From the IMG/VR virus record IMGVR_UViG_3300006102_000008, positions 1-26,007 of that record: a DNA stretch of 26,007 nt. The stretch is one strand, 5' to 3'. Shown piece after piece: positions 4,641 through 5,667 of this stretch. The notes beneath the pieces were generated by a model. The model was given only the letters and a program-made list of their open reading frames with translations. It did no database searches and was not told where the DNA came from. The DNA comes from a virus. A program made the translations under genes and the position numbers. Every line of letters starts with the position of its first letter. Position 1 is the stretch's first letter.

Positions 4641-5657
4641 ATGGCCGCATATTACAACGAGATCAATCAATTCTGCGTCGAGGTTTTAAGGGCGCGCATT
4701 GCCGATGGGGATTTGCCTGATGGAATCGTTGACGATCGAAGCATCCGAGACGTTGAGCCCGGAGATTTGGCGGGATTTTCGCAGTGCCATTTTTTCGCAG
4801 GCATTGGCTTGTGGCCTTTTGCTGCGCGACTCGTCGGATGGCCGGACGATCGCGAGCTATGGACAGGAAGCGCGCCCTGCCAACCGTTCTCGTGCGCGGG
4901 CAAAGGAAAAGGTGACGCCGATCCACGGCACCTATGGCCCGACTTTTTTCGACTCATCCGTGCCCATCGGCCCACTGTCCTCATGGGAGAGCAAGTCGAG
5001 GCAGCGGTTGGCAAGGGTTGGTTCGACCGAGTGCAATCTGATCTGGCGCGTGAAGGATACGCCAGCCGGGGTATCGTTGTCCCAGCTTGTGCCGTCAATG
5101 CGCCGCATCGAAGAAACCGACTCTGGTTTGTGGCCGACCGCGGTCGCGAACGATGCGCAGAAGCGAGGACGGGTGTCGATTCGGCCGGGAAAGTCGAATG
5201 GCCTCGCAGCAATAGCGAAATCGACGGCCGCAGATGCGAGCAAAGCCCTATGGCCAACGGCGGTCGCGTCGATGGCGGAGAGGGGCGGTCGCGGGGATCT
5301 GCTGACAGTGGCTCGCGGTTATCAAACGGCGCACGCGGGGACGCTGTGCCCGACGGCGGTAGCAAGCCCGAACGAAAACCGCAACACCCGCTCGGCACCG
5401 TCGCATGGCAAGGGGCGGGGGGCCACGCTGGCGGGCGTTTCGGCGGACACGCACAAAGCGGCGATGGCAACGCTTGGTCCGACGCAACCCCCCTCGCCTG
5501 CGCGGACGGTCGGGTCAGGCGTATTAAACCCGGAGTTCGTCTGCTGGTTGATGGGCGTCCCATCGACGTGGCTGACGCTCTCACGGCCCTCGGCAACGGA
5601 ATCGTCCCGCAAATCGCGGCGGAAGTCATCGCGGCGTATCTCGAGTGCGACGACTGA
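4641..5657 (+). CDS. C5-cytosine DNA methyltransferase
   Basis: A 338-residue protein. Motif I is FFAGIG (about 51-56), binding S-adenosylmethionine. The catalytic Cys80 lies in SAPCQPFS (motif IV loop). GEQV near residue 117 stands for the usual ENV, an often-seen phage variant that keeps the Glu. Motif VIII-like HRRNRLWFVA follows, and motif X is ALGNGIVPQIAAEVI at the C-terminus. Between about 165 and 285 lies a low-complexity Gly/Arg/Ser-rich stretch in the place of the target-recognition domain, with repeated (V/M)A(D/N)xG-like words. That same DNA is open in the +1 frame. No partner restriction enzyme is seen. It is an orphan methyltransferase that probably protects phage DNA. Confidence 0.9.
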   Translation: MAAYYNEINQFCVEVLRARIADGDLPDGIVDDRSIRDVEPGDLAGFSQCHFFAGIGLWPFAARLVGWPDDRELWTGSAPCQPFSCAGKGKGDADPRHLWPDFFRLIRAHRPTVLMGEQVEAAVGKGWFDRVQSDLAREGYASRGIVVPACAVNAPHRRNRLWFVADRGRERCAEARTGVDSAGKVEWPRSNSEIDGRRCEQSPMANGGRVDGGEGRSRGSADSGSRLSNGARGDAVPDGGSKPERKPQHPLGTVAWQGAGGHAGGRFGGHAQSGDGNAWSDATPLACADGRVRRIKPGVRLLVDGRPIDVADALTALGNGIVPQIAAEVIAAYLECDD

Positions 5658-5667
5658 GCCATGCTGA
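4699..5667 (+). CDS. overlapping ORF nested in the cytosine methyltransferase gene
   Basis: A 322-residue open frame in the +1 phase of the methyltransferase, running its whole length and ending 7 nt into the next gene. It is not random in appearance. It has SYGQEARPANRSRARAKEK near residue 55, then STECNLIWRVKDTPAG, then three copies of a (G/A/T)L(W/C)PTAVA(N/S) word (about residues 143, 183 and 215) and a degenerate fourth (LGPTQ). Last comes NPEFVCWLMGVPSTWLTL and a Ser/Arg-rich tail. I recall phage proteins with repeated WPTP-type words and an NPxFxxWLMGxPxxW ending beside such methyltransferases, often annotated as methyltransferase or hypothetical. That recollection is unverified. The start could be ATG 4699 or ATG 4720, the latter having GGGGAT upstream. 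It may be an overprinted gene or a by-product of repeat constraint. Confidence 0.45.
   Translation: MPMGICLMESLTIEASETLSPEIWRDFRSAIFSQALACGLLLRDSSDGRTIASYGQEARPANRSRARAKEKVTPIHGTYGPTFFDSSVPIGPLSSWESKSRQRLARVGSTECNLIWRVKDTPAGVSLSQLVPSMRRIEETDSGLWPTAVANDAQKRGRVSIRPGKSNGLAAIAKSTAADASKALWPTAVASMAERGGRGDLLTVARGYQTAHAGTLCPTAVASPNENRNTRSAPSHGKGRGATLAGVSADTHKAAMATLGPTQPPSPARTVGSGVLNPEFVCWLMGVPSTWLTLSRPSATESSRKSRRKSSRRISSATTEPC
5131..5364 (+). repeat. three interspersed 18-bp direct repeats in the methyltransferase gene
   Basis: Copies at 5131-5148 (TGGCCGACCGCGGTCGCG), 5251-5268 (TGGCCAACGGCGGTCGCG) and 5347-5364 (TGCCCGACGGCGGTAGCA). The spacings of 120 and 96 nt are both multiples of three, so each copy is read in the same phase in both overlapping frames. 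In the methyltransferase frame they read VADRGR, MANGGR and VPDGGS. In the +1 frame they read WPTAVA, WPTAVA and CPTAVA, a closer match than the methyltransferase words. Confidence 0.7.

Follow-up and report, generated by a model that had tools for sequence, protein, structure and literature searches.

Can one stretch of phage DNA encode a cytosine methyltransferase and, along almost the whole of the same gene, a second protein in another frame? The question is raised by a locus in a 26 kb IMG/VR virus record (26,007 nucleotides, called the window here), for which an earlier note, made from the sequence alone, had proposed a true overprinted gene of unknown role.

The two reading frames of the window gene

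The methyltransferase frame, referred to as alpha, is an open reading frame of 338 amino acids (4641-5657, plus strand, as are all features described for the locus). Its assignment as the catalytic protein of a C5-cytosine methyltransferase holds up in profile searches (phrog_363, 5e-64; PF00145, 1.2e-16), and motifs I (FAGIG, 4794-4808), IV (PCQPFS, including the PCQ, 4875-4892), VI (GEQV, 4986-4997), VIII (RNRLWF, 5112-5129) and X (GNGIVPQ, 5592-5612) are all present and in order. Cys80, Glu117, Arg158, Arg160, Gly318 and Asn319 are invariant in 52 homologues. The AlphaFold core has a pLDDT mostly above 90 and its fold matches M.HhaI, M.HaeIII and other C5-methyltransferases in Foldseek, while residues 176-273 (pLDDT <50) are predicted to be disordered. 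The recognition domain of C5-methyltransferases sits at the position of alpha residues 166-285 (5136-5495), which we refer to as region C.

The second frame, beta, is shifted by +1 and runs from TTG 4699 to the stop codon at 5665-5667, giving the 322 codons described before; ATG codons at 4705 and 4720 are alternative starts. A helix followed by a beta-hairpin is predicted for residues 95-132 (4981-5094, pLDDT 80-91), overlapping the catalytic region of alpha. Three module words follow, LWPTAVA at 5128-5148 and 5248-5268 and LCPTAVA at 5344-5364, in which W145 and T147 (first word) and T219 (third word) are nearly invariant across 138 aligned homologues. Further downstream lies a motif IX-like block, LNPEFVCWLMGVPSTW (5524-5571, with NPEFVCWLMGVPSTW at 5527-5571), whose P278 and W283 are invariant both in 51 and in 138 homologues. 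The tail SATESSRKSRRKSS is indeed the +1 reading of methyltransferase motif X (LGNGIVPQIAAEVI), as the earlier note had observed.

A search of the +1 frame against phage proteins, which had been suggested as a check, identified the product as phrog_1008 (2.9e-27 over residues 28-301), a family matched by 124 of 124 aligned relatives. Comparisons with Pfam, NCBIfam and PADLOC gave no matches, and nothing credible was found in the PDB by sequence or by fold; hits of short profiles to designed SAKe proteins were discarded as repeat artefacts, the individual repeats giving weak matches. The AlphaFold model of beta is of low confidence overall (pLDDT 58.7) with no predicted fold for the modules; confidently modelled are the helix-hairpin and, at the NPEFVCWLMG block, a helix. 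Against viral models, Foldseek returned low-confidence matches, some of them named methyltransferase.

Openness of the +1 frame

When the codons of the window methyltransferase were shuffled synonymously, the +1 frame stayed free of stops in only 3 of 1000 shuffles (mean 4.0 stops). A +1 profile from which the window sequence was excluded gives the real frame 272.8 bits versus 120.6 +/- 12.5 (maximum 161.7) for the shuffles. The pairs of the substitution test below do not include the window, which is without a close relative; the shuffles and the profile serve as its own test.

The related loci were gathered by methyltransferase-frame queries as well as by +1-frame queries and therefore do not represent a sample selected solely for open +1 frames. 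Both profiles, in +1 relation and with an overlap of >300 nt, were found in 244 of the first 248 loci collected. Stops in the +1 frame of homologues had been named as an observation that would speak against a second gene, and we looked for them: of the 210 distinct genes whose methyltransferase frame is full-length, 209 have no +1 stop from about residue 65 to about residue 295, the sole core stop being that of locus L170, and other +1 stops lie at the edges. An open +2 frame occurs in none of these 210 genes. For any single GC-rich gene, the probability of an open +1 frame is modest, and the weight of the evidence therefore comes from the concordance of many divergent genes and from the substitution test.

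A second, deeper family, retrieved by the methyltransferase-frame query and typified by Paenibacillus phage Jacopo, has a median GC of 0.53 and keeps its +1 frames open at GC 0.42-0.55. Here, the 90 codons following PCQ are free of +1 stops in 59 of 60 members, and +1 stops are depleted overall, with 35 observed compared to 226 expected from synonymous shuffles. For the actinophage genes, the count is near expectation (166 observed, 185 expected). An overlap private to the window phage is ruled out by the loci of its relatives, including the Jacopo-type family.

Selection on the two frames

Substitutions in 45 independent close pairs, covering methyltransferase residues 37-335, were classed as synonymous (S) or nonsynonymous (N), the first letter referring to the methyltransferase frame and the second to the +1 frame. 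If the methyltransferase frame were the only coding one, SS should equal SN and NS should equal NN. The rates per site, calculated with kappa fixed at 3, with multiple hits uncorrected and from few SS sites, were 0.469 (SS), 0.219 (SN), 0.167 (NS) and 0.112 (NN). Across the overlap, NS/NN is 1.49 (CI 1.32-1.69), i.e. changes that are nonsynonymous in the +1 frame are suppressed, whereas the ratio is 0.88 in the neighbouring genes (SN 0.348), 0.83 in methyltransferase codons 1-36 located 5' of the overlap and 0.60 in the +2 frame control. Selection on the +1 frame, once the methyltransferase frame is allowed for, is thus purifying, and the pattern of substitutions indicates that both frames of the overlap are under such selection, as the earlier note had supposed.

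The constraint is unevenly distributed. Region B, the part encoding the helix-hairpin, is constrained in the +1 frame (NS/NN 1.27). In region C, where alignment errors dilute the contrasts between substitution classes, SN/NN is 1.02 (CI 0.93-1.10) and NS/NN 1.58 (CI 1.36-1.87). Hence, only the +1 frame is constrained in region C, and the Jacopo family has the same pattern. A constrained target-recognition domain sought in the alpha chain between motifs VIII and IX was not found.

Considering all comparative evidence, the overlap is judged real and the +1 frame a genuine gene, and dual coding of the window locus is near certain.

Start signals of the +1 gene

In many relatives, R33-S34 of the methyltransferase is written AGG AGC and D37 is written GAT, which creates AGGAG together with a +1-frame ATG. 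AGG makes up 34 of 73 codons there as compared to 180 of 2352 arginine codons overall, and the combination of Shine-Dalgarno sequence and ATG is present in 41 of 54 representatives versus 12.9 +/- 2.9 expected (maximum 22 in 500 shuffles). Together with the constraint on region B, this excess over synonymous expectation points to independent initiation. Most relatives have these signals near methyltransferase codons 33-38. The window is without this start and instead carries TAAGGG (4687-4692) six bases 5' of TTG 4699, a possible Shine-Dalgarno sequence with a 4-nt match to the core, of which the TAA doubles as the preceding +1 stop.

Relatives with the recognition segment in frame

Insights into the role of beta come from single-chain actinophage methylases such as gp73 of Mycobacterium phage Fancypants, which carry WPTP modules and a WMMGxPxGW block in the methyltransferase frame, directly before motif X. 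Residues 143-298 of beta align with this stretch, located in frame between motifs VIII and X (profile comparison, E=5.8e-9, probability 96%), and the C-terminal half of beta is homologous to it. In M.HhaI, the corresponding position upstream of its GNSV is occupied by KLHPRECARVMGYPDSY, although a direct profile match between the +1 block and M.HhaI motif IX is weak when taken by itself (hhalign probability 8%). Both arguments of the earlier note for the gene, its repeated word and its coherent C-terminus, thus rest on real features, but neither is private to the window phage, and the C-terminal half has a counterpart in phage methyltransferases written in one frame.

The position of the motif IX segment also separates the families. 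The +1 frame carries it in 241 of 245 loci of the window family and in 73 of 80 Jacopo-type loci, the methyltransferase frame in 27 of 33 actinophage loci. In genes with an in-frame motif IX, it is the methyltransferase frame that is constrained in the middle part (SN/NN 1.92, NS/NN 0.89; 7 pairs), and genes with motif IX in the +1 frame show the reverse pattern there (SN/NN 0.88, NS/NN 1.23; 14 pairs).

The helix-hairpin half of beta behaves differently: it is constrained, overlaps the catalytic region, has no in-frame counterpart in single-chain methyltransferases and stays in the +1 frame in 13 actinophage loci, and therefore beta would do more than supply a recognition segment. In seven Fancypants-type loci (L264-L267, L271, L284 and L285), the helix-hairpin segment is in the +1 frame and the motif IX segment in the methyltransferase frame; these are possible intermediates.

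Several individual loci depart from the common layout. In L163, L307 and L368/L371, a frame change has fused the catalytic domain, the modules and motif IX in one ORF with motif X in another frame, an assembly error being possible for such single contigs; L163 (2789-4037) is a Klebsiella michiganensis gene. Two loci (L066, 1799-2936; L089, 2175-3087) have a stop in region C of alpha next to an intact +1 frame, which would represent either a three-part split or a decaying alpha. Two further loci (L227, 2476-5598; L154, 1824-3692) each contain two dual-frame methyltransferase genes close together, every one with its own +1 ORF. A seemingly stand-alone +1 gene in L156 (1-1329, without a methyltransferase frame) was rejected as such, as it is a short C-terminal remnant at a contig end, fused to the end of another ORF, which contains Cys pairs and is HNH-like by eye. 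N15 gene 58, a native dual-frame gene, had no close counterpart among E. coli genomes.

Discussion

The best explanation of these data, and in our opinion a quite probable one, is a split C5-cytosine methyltransferase written in two overlapping frames. The earlier note regarded the role of the +1 product as unknown; its homology to the target-recognition and motif IX segment allows a role to be proposed, and the product is likely the beta subunit of the split enzyme, while the dual-coding gene itself stands as described there. Alpha, with motifs I-VIII and X, would bind SAM and attack the cytosine. Beta, translated from an internal start, would contribute the helix-hairpin, the arrayed WPTP-type modules and motif IX, and would form the small domain responsible for recognising the target DNA. 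Both proteins would be made and bind each other, with beta setting the specificity, and the assembled solitary phage methyltransferase would protect the phage DNA from restriction. This explanation is favoured further by the frame trade-off and by the fused relatives, whereas the low-confidence model of beta, the weak match to M.HhaI motif IX, the helix-hairpin half and the interrupted alpha frames of L066 and L089 count against it.

Among the alternatives, a separate protein, e.g. an anti-restriction factor or a regulator of the methyltransferase, could have been overprinted on the gene by happenstance. The helix-hairpin half without in-frame counterpart, the Ser/Pro- and Arg-rich ends of the +1 product and the lack of a credible fold match all fit such a protein. 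However, the C-terminal homology to an in-frame recognition segment and the frame trade-off tie the product to methyltransferase function, and alpha would otherwise have no constrained recognition region, which makes this alternative unlikely. Programmed +1 ribosomal frameshifting past motif VIII, yielding one chain of catalytic domain, +1 modules and motif IX, would be in line with the natural in-frame fusions near that point, but it appears quite improbable, as the excess of internal Shine-Dalgarno and ATG signals suggests independent initiation, the constraint on region B lies 5' of any such shift and the fusion product would be without motif X.

The last alternative is a chance frame, given that long spurious frames occur in GC-rich genes and that synonymous shuffles still reach 121 bits through conservation of the methyltransferase alone. 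The proposal of a similarity carried over in this way is contradicted by the shuffles, the substitution test and the open +1 cores of the relatives, as well as by the Jacopo-type frames that are open at lower GC, and is extremely improbable; a GC-driven chance ORF is ruled out by the synonymous shuffles together with the substitution classes.

For the split enzyme, the closest precedent is M.EcoHK31I; this enzyme recognises YGGCCR and belongs to a restriction-modification system, and its beta gene probably lies inside the alpha gene in another frame. M.EcoHK31I consists of two polypeptides, the larger with motifs I-VIII and X and the smaller with motif IX only, and its predicted recognition domain has been assigned to the larger subunit (PMC3404938). 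In the window locus, the motif IX-like block is likewise assigned to a second, smaller polypeptide, which is read in the +1 frame. In contrast to M.EcoHK31I, the recognition region of the window alpha is unconstrained and predicted to be disordered, the constrained modules are in the +1 frame, and no partner endonuclease was identified for the window methyltransferase. M.AquI also divides its motifs between two polypeptides (PMC3404938), but it is split within the variable region with motifs IX and X on the small subunit, whereas motif X stays with alpha in the window and the genes overlap almost fully. A layout resembling M.AquI is found in Gordonia phage Upyo (L258, 2032-3572), where gp54 (catalytic) and gp53 (modules, IX and X) follow each other as separate ORFs in different frames. 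The actinophage single-chain methylases of the Fancypants gp73 type share a related catalytic domain, homologous WPTP modules and the motif IX-like block, but have all motifs in one frame, and most lack a full-length +1 overlap. An alternate-frame protein within a phage methylase gene is also known from ShiLan, where an out-of-frame HNH endonuclease is found (PMC11855218); that case differs in being a homing element inserted in the gene and not a length-wide overlap of two methyltransferase parts.

The overlap has precedents in the databases. Both frames are already annotated in Escherichia phage K1G (a C-specific methylase and an 'Mte8-like' protein), Xanthomonas phage PhiXhv-28 and Paenibacillus phage Jacopo, and other records keep one frame, which is sometimes not the methyltransferase frame (Salmonella phage W5_chr3). 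The +1 product therefore belongs to a known family and is an annotated ORF, but phrog_1008 and the K1G ORF are named just 'DNA methyltransferase' or 'Mte8-like', and the literature searched gives no account of the dual frames or of a role. In the same literature, from which most subscription papers were outside the search, we found neither an explanation of 'Mte8' nor a description of phage-wide dual coding.

Near-complete same-strand overlaps that last over long evolutionary distances have rarely been established in bacteria and their DNA phages. Hundreds of phage and prophage loci carry the present arrangement, mostly under a single-gene annotation, and the in-frame relatives offer a natural control, so that the sharing of one sequence by two proteins can be studied directly. 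If the split enzyme applies, many phage methyltransferase annotations would describe half an enzyme, and recoding the annotated frame for expression cloning would destroy the other half. A more far-reaching idea, which we regard as possible but doubtful, is that a large superfamily of phage cytosine methyltransferases is a dual-coded two-subunit enzyme whose +1 frame would provide interchangeable recognition modules in an array, with a separate target for every WPTP unit. The overlap would then persist in phages from several bacterial phyla because neither loss nor exchange could affect catalysis and specificity separately.

Besides the overlapping frames, the window encodes an MT-A70 family adenine methyltransferase (1793-2644), given which the phage may have more than one DNA-modification function. 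This gene adjoins a Vut_1 (PF02592) transporter of the vitamin-uptake type (1083-1793). Elsewhere in the window, a match to the GTA-type three-helix holin family (PF11351, 9660-10340) follows directly on the primase gene.
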